This document shows, piece after piece, positions 5,405-43,594 of a DNA stretch of 64,000 nucleotides. The DNA lies in contig DASRFG010000023.1 of NCBI GenBank assembly GCA_035651655.1, positions 372,001-436,000 on the forward strand, written 5' to 3'. The position numbers were made by a program, and so were the translations under genes. The notes beneath the pieces were generated by a model that was not told the origin of the DNA, made no database searches, and worked only from the letters and a program-made list of their open reading frames with translations. Source of the stretch: Terriglobales bacterium. GTDB lineage: Bacteria; Acidobacteriota; Terriglobia; Terriglobales; Acidobacteriaceae. The number at the start of each line of letters is the position of its first letter. Position 1 is the stretch's first letter.

Positions 5405-6298
5405 ATGTCGGCAAGCAGCAAAATTCAGCCCACGGCTGCGCGCGCAACTGTCGTACGCAGCGAAGTGCCACCGGTCCCTCTCACCATTGAAGGTTCCAGC
5501 GTGCTGCATCAGATGTTTCGTTTCCGCTGGACGGGGTGGCGGCAGCTCGCGCCAAAAGAAAAGTCGGAGATCGAGCGCGAGGCCCGTCTTGCGCTGGAGC
5601 AGATGGAGCCCAGGCAAAGCGCCCTCTATTCCCTGCTCGGCCACAAGGGCGACCTGATCTTCGTACATTTTCGCAACTCATTTGACGAGCTCAAACAGGC
5701 GGAATTGGAGCTGGCGCGGTTGCGGCTCAGCGATTATCTGGAGGCCACGAGCTCGTATCTGTCAGTCGTCGAATTAGGCTTGTACGACTCGTCGGTGAAG
5801 CTCTACCAGCAGCTCGCGGATCAAGGTCTCGCGCCTCACTCCGAGGAATGGAATAAAGAAGTAGACCAAATGCTGGCCCGGCAGCGCGAGTCCATGCGGC
5901 CGCGGCTTTATCCCGAGATGCCGCCGAACCGCTACCTGTGCTTCTATCCCATGGATCGTCGCCGGGGAGAAGACAAGAACTGGTACACCCTGCCCATCGA
6001 GGAACGGCAGCGACAGATGCACGAACACGGCATGGTGGGCCGCCGCTACGCCGGCGAGGTGAAGCAGATCATCACCGGATCAATTGGATTCGACGATTGG
6101 GAGTGGGGCGTTGACTTATTCGCCGATAATCCACTCGTCTTCAAAAAGCTGATCTACGAAATGCGCTTCGATGAGGTCAGCGCAGTGTACGCTCTGTTTG
6201 GCCAGTTCTACGTAGGACTGCGCTGTGCGGCCGCGGACCTGGGGAAATTGCTCTCCGGCGACCTACCCGAACACAGCCAAAAACAACCCATGGCATAG
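5405..6298 (+). CDS. hemQ: HemQ/ChdC-type coproheme decarboxylase
   Basis: A 297-residue protein of the chlorite-dismutase-like superfamily, HemQ branch. It converts coproheme III to protoheme b with hydrogen peroxide, the last step of the coproporphyrin-dependent haem pathway. The C-terminal half carries the family hallmarks: CFYPMDRRR with the presumed radical Tyr181, KNWYTLPIEERQRQ, MHEHGMVGRRYAG with the presumed proximal His208, QIITGSIGFDDWEWG and MRFDEVSAVYALFG. The N-terminal 30 residues are a variable extension. AGGA lies five bases before the ATG, and TAGAAT at 5383-5388 could be a -10 box. No other haem gene is adjacent. It converges with the gene at 6335-6670. Confidence 0.93.
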   Translation: MSASSKIQPTAARATVVRSEVPPVPLTIEGSSVLHQMFRFRWTGWRQLAPKEKSEIEREARLALEQMEPRQSALYSLLGHKGDLIFVHFRNSFDELKQAELELARLRLSDYLEATSSYLSVVELGLYDSSVKLYQQLADQGLAPHSEEWNKEVDQMLARQRESMRPRLYPEMPPNRYLCFYPMDRRRGEDKNWYTLPIEERQRQMHEHGMVGRRYAGEVKQIITGSIGFDDWEWGVDLFADNPLVFKKLIYEMRFDEVSAVYALFGQFYVGLRCAAADLGKLLSGDLPEHSQKQPMA

Positions 6299-6334
6299 CT
6301 GCGCAAAGGTATCGTCTTTGAGCGTGTGCGCTTG

Positions 6335-6670
6335 CTATGCAGAGCGACCCCTAAGCGACGCGTTCTTCTTTTTCGTTCCACGTTTAGCCGCAAACCGAAA
6401 CTCGTGCTGGCCCATGTCCACGCGCCTTCCGCGGAAGGCCACACCTTCTGATTGCAAGCGCAGTCGCTGTTCCAGCCCGGATTCTCCGCGCAACTTGATC
6501 TCGCCTCCCGCACCTACTACTCGATGCCAGGGCAGACCGTGCGCCGAATGCAAAGCCCACACCACCTGCCGCGCCGCTCCCGGAAAACCGGCTGCGCGGG
6601 CGATTCCGCCGTAGGTGCAAACCATTCCCCGCGGGACCTTTGCAATGGCTGCCAATATGCGCTTATGCAT
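6335..6670 (-). CDS. atl: Alkyltransferase-like protein (ATL), MGMT family without the active Cys
   Basis: A 111-residue protein equal to the DNA-binding domain of O6-alkylguanine-DNA alkyltransferases. It has the helix-turn-helix with ARQVVWAL, containing the arginine finger, but where MGMT proteins read PCHRV this one reads PWHRVV, with Trp48 in place of the alkyl-accepting Cys. That is the mark of ATL proteins, which bind alkylated guanine, do not repair it directly, and hand the lesion to nucleotide excision repair. The C-terminal tail is Arg/Lys-rich. It is followed after 16 bases by the EamA-like gene reading the same way from upstream. Confidence 0.9.
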   Translation of the reverse strand: MHKRILAAIAKVPRGMVCTYGGIARAAGFPGAARQVVWALHSAHGLPWHRVVGAGGEIKLRGESGLEQRLRLQSEGVAFRGRRVDMGQHEFRFAAKRGTKKKNASLRGRSA

Positions 6671-6686
6671 AATTCACCAAGTAAGA

Positions 6687-7115
6687 TTAGCGCTGCATTA
6701 TCAGCATCAGGCCGGCGATGCACAGCCCAATTCCCAAAACGTTTTTGCCGCTCAGGTGCTCGCGGAAGAACAACAGCCCCACGCCAACCAGCAGAAGCGC
6801 AGCCATGGCATTTGCAATCGTCGCCACCAGACTGATCTTCCATCCCACGCGATACGCCAGCAATACGCCGAGCTCGATTCCGATGATGGCGATGCCCACG
6901 GCAAAGCTTCCCCAATTCAGATACTTGAACGAAGAAGTCATTGGTGAATCGCCGGGATAAAAAGGAACAATCAACAACGAGACCACCAGCGCGGTGGCGT
7001 AATTCACCATCAGCGACAGCATGGGATTCACTTGTGCCGGAATGGACTTCTGCGCAATGTGATAGAGAGTGGTGGCTACCACCACGATGATGATGGGGGC
7101 GTAGAACCTTAACAT
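6687..7115 (-). CDS. Small EamA/DMT-type membrane protein
   Basis: About 142 residues from ATG 7115 (MLRFYAPIIIVVVATTLYH). There are four to five hydrophobic helices: residues about 4-20, 32-50, 65-85, 92-112 and 118-137. The last half, with VATIANAMAALLLVGVGLLFF and LGIGLCIAGLMLI, resembles half of a drug/metabolite transporter (EamA) protein. At this length it would need to dimerise, as small DMT proteins do. Substrate unknown. The longer open frame to 7184 adds a non-hydrophobic leader and is less likely. It ends 16 bases before the ATL gene, so the two are probably co-transcribed. Confidence 0.75.
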   Translation of the reverse strand: MLRFYAPIIIVVVATTLYHIAQKSIPAQVNPMLSLMVNYATALVVSLLIVPFYPGDSPMTSSFKYLNWGSFAVGIAIIGIELGVLLAYRVGWKISLVATIANAMAALLLVGVGLLFFREHLSGKNVLGIGLCIAGLMLIMQR

Positions 7116-38680: not shown

Positions 38681-39907
38681 CTATTTGGGGATCTCCGGCA
38701 TGGGCGGCCATTCCTGCGATGCGCCATTAAACACGGCCACGGTTTGCTCCAGCCGTTTCGTCCCATCATGAATTGCGATCTTGTGGGGTTTCCCAGGCTC
38801 GTAGCCAGTCCAAAGCGAGACACCTGCGTAGGCCCCATCCTTTCGCAAAATGTAGTAGACCATGTCCACAAAACGCAGCCGGGTCATGTCATTGTTGTAA
38901 TTGCGAACAATGCGCTTGAGCGCGTCCATGCCGGCATCAAACGGCGACATCCCATGGCGCATGTTCTCGATAATGGTGTGCGCACCGGCGACTTTAATGT
39001 TTTCTTCCCCACTGCCGGTCGCGCCCGCAGAGCCCACGTCCTGGTCGGTATAGCAGCCCGCGCCTATGATGGGCGAGTCGCCACAGCGTCCCGGAAGCTT
39101 CCAAGAGAGGCCGCTGGTTGTGGTGGTGCCGGACATTTCACCTTTCTCGTTTAATGCGGAGCAATGGATCGTGCCGGTTGGCGGGAACAAGACTTGCCGG
39201 ATCGCACGCATGCGATGGTCGGGCGCAATGCCCAACTCTGCAGCGATCTGCTCCAGCTTCTGTATCTTTTGCTGAATCGCGGAGATCGGCGGAGCCGACC
39301 AGGAAGCCGCCTGCTTTTGCTCCGGTGGCCGCCAGCGCCGATCCGCCAAGCCTGGGCCCCACCAGTCGCGCTCTGAATTAAACTCTTTCCATAGCAGCCA
39401 GGTTTTCCGCGAAGGCTCCGTGAGCAGGTTCTCGCGAGGAAATCCCAGCGCGACTGCAAACTTCTGCGCGCCCTCGCCCACGAGCATCACGTGGCCGGTG
39501 TGCTCCATCACGCCGCGCGCGACCAGCGAAACATTCTTGATTTCGCGGACTCCGCCCACCGACCCAGCACGTCGCGTCGGCCCGTGCATGCAGCATGAGT
39601 CGAGCTCAACCACACCTTCTTCGTTCGGCAGGCCGCCCAGGCCGACGCTCTGATCGTTGGGGTCGTCTTCGGGCCCCTTCACTACGCGCAATGCGGCTTC
39701 CAGCGTGTCGCCGCCGCTGCTGAGGATCTTGTATCCATCGTCGAGGTAGTTAAATCCGTTGGCGGCGCAGACCAACACTGGCTTTTTCGCGACCTTCTGG
39801 GCGCCGGCAGCCGAGGGCTGACCCTTTGCGATTTGTTTGGCTTCAGCGCTGAGAGCAACGGCTCCTAATGCAGTGGTGGCAATGAAATCCCGTCGCGAGA
39901 TGGACAT
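38681..39907 (-). CDS. Tat-exported N-terminal-nucleophile asparaginase family enzyme
   Basis: A 408-residue protein of the asparaginase_2 / aspartylglucosaminidase family. The N-terminus SRRDFIATTALGAVAL is a twin-arginine signal. Conserved stretches: SSGGDTLEAAL, SVGLGGLPNEEGVVELDSCCMHG, and GTIHCSAL where Thr246 would become the nucleophile after self-cleavage, followed by PGRCGDSPIIGAGCYTD. Relatives cleave N4-glycosyl-asparagine or isoaspartyl bonds; the substrate here is unknown. Export suggests a periplasmic role, perhaps in glycopeptide or isopeptide turnover. Confidence 0.88.
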   Translation of the reverse strand: MSISRRDFIATTALGAVALSAEAKQIAKGQPSAAGAQKVAKKPVLVCAANGFNYLDDGYKILSSGGDTLEAALRVVKGPEDDPNDQSVGLGGLPNEEGVVELDSCCMHGPTRRAGSVGGVREIKNVSLVARGVMEHTGHVMLVGEGAQKFAVALGFPRENLLTEPSRKTWLLWKEFNSERDWWGPGLADRRWRPPEQKQAASWSAPPISAIQQKIQKLEQIAAELGIAPDHRMRAIRQVLFPPTGTIHCSALNEKGEMSGTTTTSGLSWKLPGRCGDSPIIGAGCYTDQDVGSAGATGSGEENIKVAGAHTIIENMRHGMSPFDAGMDALKRIVRNYNNDMTRLRFVDMVYYILRKDGAYAGVSLWTGYEPGKPHKIAIHDGTKRLEQTVAVFNGASQEWPPMPEIPK

Positions 39908-40021: not shown

Positions 40022-41188
40022 TCAATCGCCGGCTTGTTTCAGATTAGTGTTTTGGTCGGCGCGGAAGCGTAACAACGCCGCGATGTGGCCGACTTTCTCG
40101 AACTCCGGGTCCTGTTCAACGTAGATGATCCCGATGCGATTGCGCACCGCCTTGCCGACCAGGGCATCGGAAATGTCGCTCAATTCGCTGGTTGGATGGT
40201 CGCAGATCGCGCAATTGGGCCCGGGATGGAAATCGAGATGCCCGCAATTGGTACACTCGGAACCGGGCGCTTGGAATTTATCACCCAACAACAGGGTCTG
40301 CACTTCTCCCATCTCCAGTGAGTTCAACACATGCCGCAATCCGACCGCGCCGCGCCCATCGCGACGGGCTTCGCCAATCGCCTCGCGGATCGCGGCTTCG
40401 CGATAGGTGTTACGGTGATCAGTAAAGACTTCGCTGGCCCGATCCCGTACTTCCTCAAGCGTCGCGGTTGCAGTATCTGCGGCAAAGCGTCCTACCAGAT
40501 GCTCACGGACATACGGATGCAGATGCGGTTCGATCTCCGGCCAGGTCTCGTCACGGCAGCCAATGATGAAGTTCTCGCATGTCCCAATGTCGTATAGCGC
40601 CTTCAATCGCTCAGCAACGTTCTTGAAGTGATGCATGGCCTCGTGCTCCACATGGCGTTCGATGTGGCCGGCGTCGTACCCTGCGAACCCGTCACTACGT
40701 CTGCGAGGCAGGTTGTCCTTGATGTCTTTACGTTCTTCGATCTCATCCGACGACAGTTCAAAGAATCGCGCCAGTTGGCGGTCCACCAAGGCCACGCATG
40801 CATGCGAAAGATTGCTGAGCACCCGCGCTAGCGGCCGCAGATGGAAGCGCCGGTTCAGGGCAAGGCTGCTCCCCGAAAGCAGGGGCGGGAGATCGAACTC
40901 GCGCCAGAATCCCTGCTCAGAAGATGCAAATACCGCCTTCGCATGGGAATGATCGTTCTGCAGTGCTTCCGCAACCTGGATAATTCGGTCCAGATCGGCG
41001 CGCGCACAACGGTGTTTACCGTCCTTCCCTGCCTCGCGGAGCGCGTTCTGCACTAGGTCCTTCGCCAGTATGGCCTCTTCACGGTGCGATTTGTTTTGCG
41101 GTGTTTGCGGCTGAAAGTAGAAACTAAGAGCGCAACCTTGCTTTGACTCAAACTGTGCCAACTCACGGATGTCTTCGCGACGGATCAT
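40022..41188 (-). CDS. Bacterial eRF1-like protein (baeRF family) with zinc ribbon
   Basis: A 388-residue cytoplasmic protein. The N-terminal part (LSFYFQPQTP, an Arg/Lys/Asp-rich helix region) and the middle part (HACVALVDRQLARFFEL through DGFAGYDAGHIERHVEHEAMHHFKNVAERL) fit the baeRF relatives of archaeal/eukaryotic peptide-release factor 1. The C-terminal part is an eL30/eRF1-type domain with an inserted zinc ribbon CTNC-x10-CAIC (Cys312, 315, 326, 329). No GGQ tripeptide is present, so peptide release is not expected. GGAG and AAGG precede the ATG. It follows the HPF-sigma gene after 24 bases. Likely acts on ribosomes; this is inference. Confidence 0.72.
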   Translation of the reverse strand: MIRREDIRELAQFESKQGCALSFYFQPQTPQNKSHREEAILAKDLVQNALREAGKDGKHRCARADLDRIIQVAEALQNDHSHAKAVFASSEQGFWREFDLPPLLSGSSLALNRRFHLRPLARVLSNLSHACVALVDRQLARFFELSSDEIEERKDIKDNLPRRRSDGFAGYDAGHIERHVEHEAMHHFKNVAERLKALYDIGTCENFIIGCRDETWPEIEPHLHPYVREHLVGRFAADTATATLEEVRDRASEVFTDHRNTYREAAIREAIGEARRDGRGAVGLRHVLNSLEMGEVQTLLLGDKFQAPGSECTNCGHLDFHPGPNCAICDHPTSELSDISDALVGKAVRNRIGIIYVEQDPEFEKVGHIAALLRFRADQNTNLKQAGD

Positions 41189-41212: not shown

Positions 41213-42262
41213 CTATGCAATCTTGGAGTGCTGCAGCAACAAATCTTTGAACTCGTTGGGGATAGGTAGCGATTTCTTCAGGTGCTCGCGAGCGGCAAGA
41301 ATAGAAGCACGCACTTCTTCCGGCTTGCGGTCTGTAATGGCAGCAATCTCGTCCACGGTGAAACCCTCGATGGCATAGAGAATAAATGCTTCCCGGTCCG
41401 GGGGAGCTGCGCTCAAGAGGGCCGATTCCACCAATGTAATCATCTCGTCAGAGGCGGCCACATCTTCGGGGGTAGCGATCCGCGGATCGGGGATGACATC
41501 TTCTGCCAGTAGCTGCTCATCGGGCTGGTGAAATTCCAATAATGGCTCGTCACTCGCGAGGATGTTCTGGGACCGCAGAGAGTGCTCAAGGGGAACATCT
41601 TCCGATCCGTCTCTGGTTCGGCGAGAAAGGCGATCAATGGCGCGGATCGCCAACCGGTAAAGCCATGGCTCGAGCGCCAGCCGCTCCGGTTTTTCAATGC
41701 CCTCTCCCAGAGCGTCAGCTATGGCTTCATCAATAACTTCCTCTACCTTGAGTGAATCCGGCCGCAGCTGGCCAGCACTCTCCCGATAACGCAATTCGCG
41801 CTCGACAAAGCTCTTCAGATTGTCGAGATTAACGTCAATGTAGCTCCTGATGTCCTCTGGCGAAACCATCGGCGGCTGAACCGCCGCTACCGTCTGCTCA
41901 AATGGCACTTCCGGCTCGCGCCGGCTACGTTCCTCGCGCCCGCGCCAACGAGGAAACTTATGATGGCTGCGGAGATGGTCCTTGTGCTTGGTGAGCTGCT
42001 GGAGCAGGTCGTCGAACGCCGACTTCAGGGCTGCCGTCGCTACTGGGGCACTCTGCTGGACCGCCATTTGGCCCGAAGGCAAGCGCAGGTTGAGCGAAAC
42101 AATAAAACCCTCGCGGACAGAGTTGTGCTCTATGACTCCCTTCAAGTGCACGAGCTCGGGGCGGAACACCTGCAATCTTTTCTGCAGCTTCTCGACGTGG
42201 TGATTAATTTCTTTTTCGATATCGGGAGTCTTATTAACCTTGTAACTGACGTGGACGTTCAT
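41213..42262 (-). CDS. HPF/RaiA-like ribosome-hibernation domain fused to ECF-like sigma regions
   Basis: A 349-residue protein from ATG 42262 (GAGG upstream). Residues 1-105 look like the S30AE/HPF domain: MNVHVSYKVNKTPDIEKEI, a KLQKRL helix end, then paired strands and AVQQSAPVATAALKSAFDDL followed by the basic KHKDHLRSHHK. Residues 106-137 are a charged linker. Residues 138-218 resemble sigma region 2 (VEEVIDEAIADAL ... EPWLYRLAIRAIDRLSRR). Residues 275-332 resemble sigma region 4 with a helix-turn-helix (FTVDEIAAITDRKPEEVRAS). HPF domains bind the 30S decoding site in stationary phase; ECF sigma factors recruit RNA polymerase. One reading frame covers both with no stop or shift. Activity of either half is inferred. 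Confidence 0.8.
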   Translation of the reverse strand: MNVHVSYKVNKTPDIEKEINHHVEKLQKRLQVFRPELVHLKGVIEHNSVREGFIVSLNLRLPSGQMAVQQSAPVATAALKSAFDDLLQQLTKHKDHLRSHHKFPRWRGREERSRREPEVPFEQTVAAVQPPMVSPEDIRSYIDVNLDNLKSFVERELRYRESAGQLRPDSLKVEEVIDEAIADALGEGIEKPERLALEPWLYRLAIRAIDRLSRRTRDGSEDVPLEHSLRSQNILASDEPLLEFHQPDEQLLAEDVIPDPRIATPEDVAASDEMITLVESALLSAAPPDREAFILYAIEGFTVDEIAAITDRKPEEVRASILAAREHLKKSLPIPNEFKDLLLQHSKIA

Positions 42263-42430: not shown

Positions 42431-43594
42431 CTAGACGGCAACCGTCACCGAGGTCTCTGTCCGCTCCACCGGCCTATACAGAGTGTCGCGCTCCACGGGA
42501 GTACGCCCGGCTTCGCGAATCAGACGAATCAGATCTTGGCGGCGCAGGCCTTGCGGCGTAGTGGCGCCAGCGTCGTGATAGATCTTCTCCTCGATCACGG
42601 TGCCATCGAGATCGTCGGCGCCAAATCGCAGCGAGATCTGCGCTATCCGCGGGGTCAGCATCTGCCAGTAGGCCTTGATGTGGGGGAAGTTGTCGAGCAC
42701 CAAGCGGCCGATAGCAATTTGGCGGATGTCGAGCATTCCGGTTGTCGCGGGCAGATGCTCAAGTGCGGTATTGGGAGGATGGAATGCCAGAGGAATGAAG
42801 GTTTGGAATCCTCCAGTGTCATCCTGCAGAGCACGCAGTTTCAGCAAGTGGTCAACCCGGTCTTCGTCGTTTTCCACGTGCCCATAGAGCATGGTGGCGT
42901 TGGACCGCAACCCCAGCTGGTGTGCTGTTCGCGCAGTTTCCAGCCACTGGTCGCCATCAATCTTGTGGTCGCAGATAATGTGGCGAATGCGGTCGGCGAA
43001 GATCTCAGCGCCACCCCCGGGGAGTGAATCCACGCCCGCTGTCTTCAATTGCTGCAGCGTTTCGCGGATAGAGAGCTTGGCGCGCTTGGCAAGGTAGGCA
43101 ACCTCCACCATCGTGAAGGCTTTCAGGTGAACGTTGGGAAAGCGCTGCTTGAGGCCAGACACCAGATCGAGAAAATACTGGAACGGCAGGTCGGGATGGA
43201 GCCCACCGACGATGTGAAATTCTGTTACCGCCTCGCTATAGCCGGAAGCGGCCGTCTGCCAGGCTTCCTCGAGCGCCATGGTGTAGGCGCCTGGCGCGTC
43301 TTTCTTGCGGCCAAAGGCGCACAAACGGCATGCCGCCACACATACGTTCGTAGGATTGATATGGCGGTTAACGTTGAAGTAAGTATGGTCGCCGTGCAAT
43401 CGCTCACGCACGTGATTGGCTAGCCAACCAATGGCCAAAATGTCGGAAGAACGATACAGCGTGAGCGCGTCGTCACTATCGAGCCGCTGGCGATTGAGCA
43501 CTTTTTCCGCGATGGAATTCAGCCGCGGATCGTCAGTCTGAAAGGCGTGTGCCGGAAGCGCTTGCGCAGGAGCCACGCAACTATGATATCGCAC
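42431..43594 (-). CDS. mqnE: Aminofutalosine synthase (radical SAM), menaquinone biosynthesis
   Basis: A 387-residue radical SAM enzyme. The cluster motif is C-x3-C-x2-C (Cys85, 89, 92) in NVCVAACRLCAF. VTEFHIVGGLHPDLPF, LKAFTMVEVAYLAKRAKLS and DSLPGGGAEIFADRIRHIIC match MqnE rather than MqnC, whose corresponding stretch differs. MqnE joins chorismate-derived enolpyruvylbenzoate with SAM to form aminofutalosine, the first committed step of the futalosine route. GTG start. It follows the prenyltransferase gene after 18 bases, in the same transcript. Confidence 0.9.
   Translation of the reverse strand: MRYHSCVAPAQALPAHAFQTDDPRLNSIAEKVLNRQRLDSDDALTLYRSSDILAIGWLANHVRERLHGDHTYFNVNRHINPTNVCVAACRLCAFGRKKDAPGAYTMALEEAWQTAASGYSEAVTEFHIVGGLHPDLPFQYFLDLVSGLKQRFPNVHLKAFTMVEVAYLAKRAKLSIRETLQQLKTAGVDSLPGGGAEIFADRIRHIICDHKIDGDQWLETARTAHQLGLRSNATMLYGHVENDEDRVDHLLKLRALQDDTGGFQTFIPLAFHPPNTALEHLPATTGMLDIRQIAIGRLVLDNFPHIKAYWQMLTPRIAQISLRFGADDLDGTVIEEKIYHDAGATTPQGLRRQDLIRLIREAGRTPVERDTLYRPVERTETSVTVAV

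Follow-up and report, generated by a model that had tools for sequence, protein, structure and literature searches.

The window analysed here is a 64,000-nucleotide stretch of DNA from a Terriglobales bacterium, and the gene under study lies on its reverse strand (Table 1). One uninterrupted frame, from an ATG at 42262 to a TAG stop, encodes a 349-residue protein in which an S30AE/HPF domain is followed by helices resembling sigma factor regions 2 and 4. The initial annotation had proposed that the two kinds of domain share this frame, and Pfam bears this out, with S30AE matching residues 8-97 (E 1.1e-6, 29.7 bits, above the cut-off of 23.7) and Sigma70_r4_2 matching residues 287-328 (E 1.3e-7, 31.6 bits against a cut-off of 25.7).

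Table 1. The fusion gene, the parts of its product and the neighbouring genes (positions in the window).
Feature	Position	Strand	Residues	Basis or remark
HPF-sigma-mimic fusion gene	41213..42262	-	349 aa	one uninterrupted frame
S30AE/HPF domain	41951..42262	-	1-104	Pfam; profile against PDB
Linker	41867..41950	-	105-132	least conserved segment, mean pairwise identity 0.31
Sigma region 2-like helices	41609..41866	-	133-218	model; column comparison
Acidic linker	41474..41608	-	219-263	net charge -9; region 2-like and region 4-like parts on either side
Sigma region 4-like helices	41267..41473	-	264-332	Pfam; PDB profile; column comparison
baeRF family 10 / Balon-like gene, downstream of the fusion	40022..41188	-	388 aa	profiles; linkage
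Radical-SAM protein with CofH/MqnC C-terminal region, upstream neighbour	42431..43594	-		

Relatives were collected from 150 genomes of the order, 89 of which gave some match at E<=0.001. A strong collinear match over both halves was found in 53 genomes, 40 of one family (f1) and 13 of another (f2); in the remaining matching genomes the matches were ordinary sigma factors. The conservation of the fusion among homologues, which the initial annotation had left to be established, is thus settled. We extracted 60 family proteins including that of the window, and 54 of them entered the alignment, at identities to the window's protein from 70% down to 30%. Left out were L008, which has a frame break inside its sigma half (6001-7008), and five sequences close to rows that were kept (L019, L027, L028, L035, and L043). 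Dropped earlier were L005 (ambiguous base), L009 (cut), L025 (near a contig end), the own-genome repeats, and 12 second copies of loci. An ATG stands at the aligned first residue in 59 of 59 extracted relatives. Across the phylum, a profile of the 54 members detected the family in at least 24 of 396 genomes from 10 families, which is an undercount because just 5 candidates per genome were scored; 3 of the 24 matches cover one part of the profile only. When 10 distant members were scanned at E<=0.01, Sigma70_r4_2 was found in all 10 and S30AE in 9, the Pfam scan giving no S30AE match for L112. Two genomes carry two copies each, G486 (L103 and L112) and G025 (L064 and L065). The S30AE/HPF domain and the sigma-fold domain therefore form one protein, and the fusion is real and conserved.

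The S30AE domain was recognised at E<=0.01 in 49 of the 54 aligned members. The match of the window's protein to the NCBIfam HPF/YfiA equivalog TIGR00741 (E 6e-5, 23.4 bits) falls below the cut-off of 40.9, so the protein has an S30AE domain but is not an HPF equivalog. A 15-row profile of the HPF half retrieved HPF/YfiA chains from the PDB (4v8h, E 1.4e-5; 6h4n, E 2.2e-4), and the final helix of this half, DDLLQQLTKHKDHLRSHH, resembles that of the HPF chain in 4v8h. Residues 1-110 carry a net charge of +7 in the window's protein and of +7.7 on average across members. The predicted models of the HPF half are of low confidence, and their matches were general ferredoxin-like folds, with no HPF among the 50 entries listed. 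When the genome's own long HPF was scored with the HPF-half profiles, it reached 13.7 bits with the acidobacterial and 5.4 bits with the proteobacterial version, low values that mark the HPF half as divergent; proteobacterial members do not retain Lys94 of the HPF signature. That long HPF (S30AE plus S30AE_C; L078:4614-5231, contig C31) is a gene separate from the fusion, and its flanks were read by eye as rpoN and rapZ. Like HPF/RaiA factors, long HPF included, the fusion protein has a basic N-terminal S30AE domain ending in an HPF-like helix, whereas its tail is a sigma-fold domain in place of the S30AE_C of long HPF. Hibernation factors act on ribosomes. By analogy with the S30AE/HPF family, the fusion protein may be expected to bind ribosomes as well.

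In the C-terminal half, the initial annotation had read sigma regions 2 and 4. Region 4 stood in the profile search, as given above, and region 2 did not (Sigma70_r2, E 0.069, 13.4 bits, below the cut-off of 24). The NCBIfam sigma70-ECF model matched residues 149-332 (E 5.5e-11) at 42.4 bits, marginally below its cut-off of 42.9. The stretch that had been singled out as region 2, EPWLYRLAIRAIDRLSRR, comprises residues 198-215 and lies in the correct place for that region. An AlphaFold2 model was built from a 7-sequence alignment (mean pLDDT 55.6, about 60-85 in the sigma-like helices). Compared by VIA-align, its residues 133-336 matched RpoE:NepR 5uxx best (Z 13.9, 149 residues, rmsd 4.3), then PhyR-SL:NepR 2lfw (Z 12.1), SigG1 (11.5), CnrH (11.4), and PhyR (11.3), where gaps below 1 count as ties and helical folds may reach such Z through arrangement alone. 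In this model the folds of regions 2 and 4 are present in ECF order. In the PDB profile search with the whole sigma half, the alignment to SigG1 (7qh5) runs through both regions. Used by itself as query, the region 2 piece retrieved one weakly matching PDB chain, an RNA polymerase beta' (E 0.049), which was taken as chance. The region 4-like part has an EGF motif and an altered recognition helix (KPEEVRASILAAR). With respect to ECF sigma factors, the fusion thus keeps regions 2 and 4 in fold and order and differs by lost signature residues, described below, and by its N-terminal ribosome domain. ECF sigma factors with fused domains exist, for example ECF41.

PhyR, which consists of a sigma-like domain and a receiver, binds NepR in the general stress response of alphaproteobacteria as an anti-sigma decoy and is switched by phosphorylation. 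The Pfam family PhyR_sigma-like matched residues 286-326 of the window's protein (E 3.7e-8, 33.5 bits against a cut-off of 27) and 50 of the 54 aligned members. Searched against the PDB, the region 4 piece found PhyR 9cb6 first (E 3.8e-5) and three further PhyR chains, followed by sigma-E region 4 (E 0.012). The 54-row profile placed sigma-E (1.8e-11) ahead of PhyR (1e-8), and the whole sigma half matched the two alike (sigma-E 3.3e-4, PhyR 4.1e-4). The Pfam scan of the window's protein found no receiver domain, so the fusion is not a PhyR, and PhyR_sigma2 was not among the matches. The sigma-like domain, a predicted fold like that of PhyR-SL:NepR, and a region 4 piece nearest to PhyR chains are shared with PhyR; PhyR carries a receiver, whereas the fusion has an N-terminal HPF domain and lacks a recognised NepR-type partner. 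Judged from these profile matches, the sigma-like domain of PhyR is the nearest named kind to the sigma half. We regard the likeness in profile and predicted fold as real, yet as no proof of a common function.

We compared the sigma half with 32 sigma factor controls at positions which we take to serve core binding, promoter melting, and -35 recognition. The controls comprised 15 of the 26 region-4 matches of the own genome, picked by eye after the fusion, LuxR-type, and other proteins had been dropped, and 17 best scorers from members of the order, chosen after 12 primary sigma factors and one repeat had been dropped. Gln178 in region 2.2, presumably a core contact, is found in 0 of 54 members against 29 of the 32 controls, and Asn207 in region 2.3 in 3/54 against 27/32; the window's protein has Asp178 and Arg207. 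Further losses, which include basic residues of the -35 helix, concern R/K at 214 (15/54 against 29/32), T/N at 316 (4/54 against 27/32), R/Q at 320 (0/54 against 22/32), and R/K at 323 (10/54 against 29/32), in a comparison whose controls lean to consensus because they were selected by eye and as best scorers. Position 178 is Asp in all 18 distant acidobacterial rows and in 13 of 14 proteobacterial rows, the other being Gly. Phe301 of the EGF motif is present in 54/54 members in the order and 12/18 distant acidobacterial rows and is not kept in Proteobacteria. The net charge of the sigma half averages -15.3 (-23 to -4) in members against +1.1 (-6 to 12) in controls, related sequences being treated as independent in the charge as in the column statistics; in proteobacterial fusions it ranges from -13 to -29. 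dN/dS, calculated for 22 pairs more than 72% identical, was mostly 0.02-0.25 and at highest 0.45 in the HPF, region 2-like, and region 4-like parts (8 of 66 values undefined). All three parts are under purifying selection. Since the signature is lost and the sequence is nevertheless constrained, it seems that selection maintains the sigma half for a purpose that is not promoter recognition.

The start of the 388-residue Balon-like gene lies 24 nt past the stop of the fusion. Its product matches baeRF_family10 (E 5.8e-18) and has two CxxC pairs; GGQ and NIKS motifs are absent from it, and its match to the NCBIfam MSMEG_1130 family (E 3e-13) scores 49.4 bits, below the cut-off of 480. Among the 150 genomes, 38 gave a baeRF match at E<=1e-20, and 31 of these have a close orthologue (E<1e-100). 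The fusion is present in 31 of these 31 genomes, and in 30 the close orthologue lies directly downstream on the same strand, at most 85 nt from the aligned end of the fusion. The other 7 genomes have weaker baeRF matches and are without a strong fusion match. Conversely, 9 of the 40 fusion-bearing f1 genomes lack the close orthologue (in one of them the locus is at a contig edge), and the 13 fusion-bearing f2 genomes gave no baeRF match at E<=1e-20. In G486, one fusion copy (L103) has a baeRF gene about 300 nt downstream, and the other is beside a STAS gene. The link to ribosome hibernation that the initial annotation drew from the S30AE domain is strengthened by this adjacent gene. Passages of PMC6514570 and PMC10901736 report linkage of baeRF/Balon and HPF genes, and a figure legend of the latter lists 'alternative sigma70 factors' in Balon operons. 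The pairing of a hibernation factor gene with a baeRF gene described in such passages recurs at the window locus, whereas the HPF type and the sigma type are joined here in one protein, an arrangement that the same passages (PMC10901736, PMC6514570) do not mention.

Neighbours were clustered in 42 loci, in 6 of which the automatic gene picture missed the fusion, which was placed from a separate read. The radical-SAM gene lies upstream of or near the fusion in many f1 loci and is probably a merely positional neighbour. An N(4)-glycosylasparaginase-type gene, named by eye (38681-39907 of the window, reverse strand), is also near the fusion in many f1 loci. In other acidobacterial families the neighbours include a YhaM-like exonuclease, an aminotransferase, a TrmJ-like methyltransferase, and a lytic transglycosylase. 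No anti-sigma gene was recognised among 18 scanned proteins of recurring or nearby neighbour families, which include the long HPF and a baeRF. STAS frames occur 80 and 39 nt from the fusion frame in family f62 (L112:4396-4758 and L117:4599-4997) and 2.7-3.7 kb downstream of it in three f2 loci (L060, L061, and L063). A STAS neighbour, of anti-anti-sigma type, is a lead only.

Outside Acidobacteriota, plasmid records were searched, as were E. coli genomes for near matches of orf11 (see below). With the whole protein as query, tblastn against 72,556 plasmid records hit 26, 20 of them at >=80% coverage and all below 60% identity, from Burkholderia, Paraburkholderia, Cupriavidus, Paracoccus, Shinella, Methylorubrum, Roseomonas, and other hosts. 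Those plasmid copies that carry an annotation are named sigma-70 factor, sigma-28, FliA, sigma-factor-like HTH protein, or hypothetical protein. Our results suggest that the labels 'sigma-70 factor', 'FliA', and 'sigma-28' are wrong for several of these genes, which would not be sigma factors. In five plasmid loci an AAA ATPase gene, the fusion, and HdeD follow each other (with one intervening gene in Roseomonas), and in Sphingobium the fusion sits ahead of HdeD. Burkholderia and one Paraburkholderia have Hsp20 genes on one side of the fusion and GroESL-DnaK on the other. The fusion is thus tightly linked to the Balon-like gene in most of the window's family and to chaperone and protease genes in Proteobacteria. 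In Phenylobacterium zucineum the relative is shorter and has no HPF half; on a plasmid of this species, the sigma-half relative (L183:5573-6567) follows a DUF5335 gene, the ends overlapping, in a region that also has Lon, TrxC, Hsp20, and a 'host attachment' gene. On the plasmid of Cupriavidus sp. P-10 the sigma-like half is annotated as two genes (L181:5986-6699), next to a transposase gene.

A 381-residue 'hypothetical protein' is encoded between HdeD (DUF308 / hdeD-GI) and trx-GI on a Pseudomonas fragi plasmid and an E. coli plasmid. By the gene order given in PMC8290217, it is orf11 of the heat-tolerance island tLST. Against a profile of 11 other proteobacterial members, orf11 scored 168 bits over positions 1-334. 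Its HPF half alone scored 39.7 and 40.5 bits in the two copies; on the proteobacterial profile the best of the 32 sigma controls reached 42 bits, carried by the sigma part. The acidobacterial full-length profile gave 67 bits over 36-330, the acidobacterial HPF-half profile 12.7 and 12.2 bits for the two copies, and the sigma-half profile 51.7 and 38.5 bits, where true sigma factors reach up to 49. The Pfam S30AE match is weak (E 0.06), and membership rests on the full-length profiles and on tblastn matches between orf11 and further fusion proteins. The 13 proteobacterial rows group together (97/96) when 43 proteins are placed in a tree, and within this group the two tLST copies sit on a long branch (1.35) beside four Burkholderiales copies (98/92). 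By these comparisons, orf11 appears to be a full-length divergent relative, homologous over both halves. With P. fragi orf11 as query, tblastn found 301 plasmid records at E<=1e-10, 279 at >=60% identity and 263 with matches spanning >=80% of the protein, and among 5,426 E. coli genomes a near DNA match occurs in 15, extending over most of the gene in 4. According to PMC5383660, orf11 is disrupted in LHR2. In PMC8407380, heat or chlorine resistance of E. coli MG1655 fell on deletion of one or other of seven named genes; orf11 does not belong to the seven, and its deletion left lipid oxidation unchanged. The divergent orf11 copy may be without a partner in E. coli MG1655.

What, then, is the sigma half for? 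Our leading reading, which we put forward tentatively, is that of a hibernation-type factor whose sigma mimic tail binds a sigma-linked partner, perhaps under the control of the ribosome. The HPF half would occupy the 30S decoding channel of idle ribosomes, and the Balon-like protein, where present, would act together with it. More speculatively still, the sigma-like half might bind a protein that otherwise holds a sigma factor, as a decoy in the manner of PhyR, and the availability of the decoy might be set by whether the HPF half is on or off the ribosome. When ribosomes idle, a stress sigma factor would thereby be set free, and the fusion itself would never start transcription. NepR/PhyR is an alphaproteobacterial system, so the acidobacterial partner would be some other protein. 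A switch acting on a sigma partner would be the most likely use of the sigma half; in its full form, in which the HPF domain senses idle ribosomes and so shows or hides a PhyR-like sigma decoy, we consider it unlikely.

The strongest competitor, somewhat unlikely in our estimate, is that the sigma fold was co-opted solely as a protein-protein module with no link to the sigma network, either to dimerise 70S ribosomes, a role that the C-terminal domain plays in long HPF, or as a docking site for the Balon-like protein or for chaperones. The acidic, conserved sigma half with its lost signature would suit such a tail, other tails exist, as the S30AE_C of the genome's long HPF illustrates, and the neighbours are hibernation and proteostasis genes, not recognised anti-sigma genes. 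This reading accounts less well for the retention of the two-domain sigma arrangement, which is more than one helical bundle, and for the PhyR likeness of region 4 by itself. Improbable, by comparison, is a tether to RNA polymerase, in which the sigma-like half would contact the core without initiating and would hold idle polymerase on hibernating ribosomes or block sigma exchange. Regions 2 and 4 retain their fold and the order of their helices, and Trp200 (54/54 members), Glu175, and Glu179 (51/54 each) are conserved, all of which a tether would explain, but the region 2.2 Gln found in 29 of 32 controls occurs in none of the 54 members, 18 distant acidobacterial rows, or 14 proteobacterial rows.

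The initial annotation had suggested that the protein could be a true ECF sigma factor which the ribosome sequesters, or releases, by way of the HPF half. Region 4 does exceed the Pfam cut-off, the window's protein comes close to the ECF superfamily cut-off, the Shinella plasmid member passes it at 51 bits, and databases label several plasmid members sigma factors. Against this, the family-wide loss of signature residues and the strong negative charge make active sigma function unlikely; the sigma half probably does not work as a sigma factor, and we regard this reading as very improbable. Finally, a chance or assembly artefact, such as a frameshift or misassembly joining two genes, is ruled out for practical purposes by collinear homologues, which occur within the order, in other families of Acidobacteriota, and on plasmids of Proteobacteria; nothing at the window speaks for it, the one frame break seen being that of the relative L008.

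We found no description of an HPF-sigma fusion in the open-access literature. The module occurs in at least 10 acidobacterial families and moves with stress islands, including tLST as orf11, and the family gives this gene of a heat- and chlorine-tolerance island its first domain identity. A copy is also present in Methylorubrum extorquens AM1, a model of the PhyR response, which makes the switch idea directly testable. As its relatives are spread over many soil bacteria and include a gene of a transferable heat-tolerance island, the fusion may connect sleeping ribosomes with stress signalling. Conserved and equipped with both domains, such a protein could wire ribosome idling directly to transcription control, and, if the switch is true, translational dormancy would be read out straight into a stress response.
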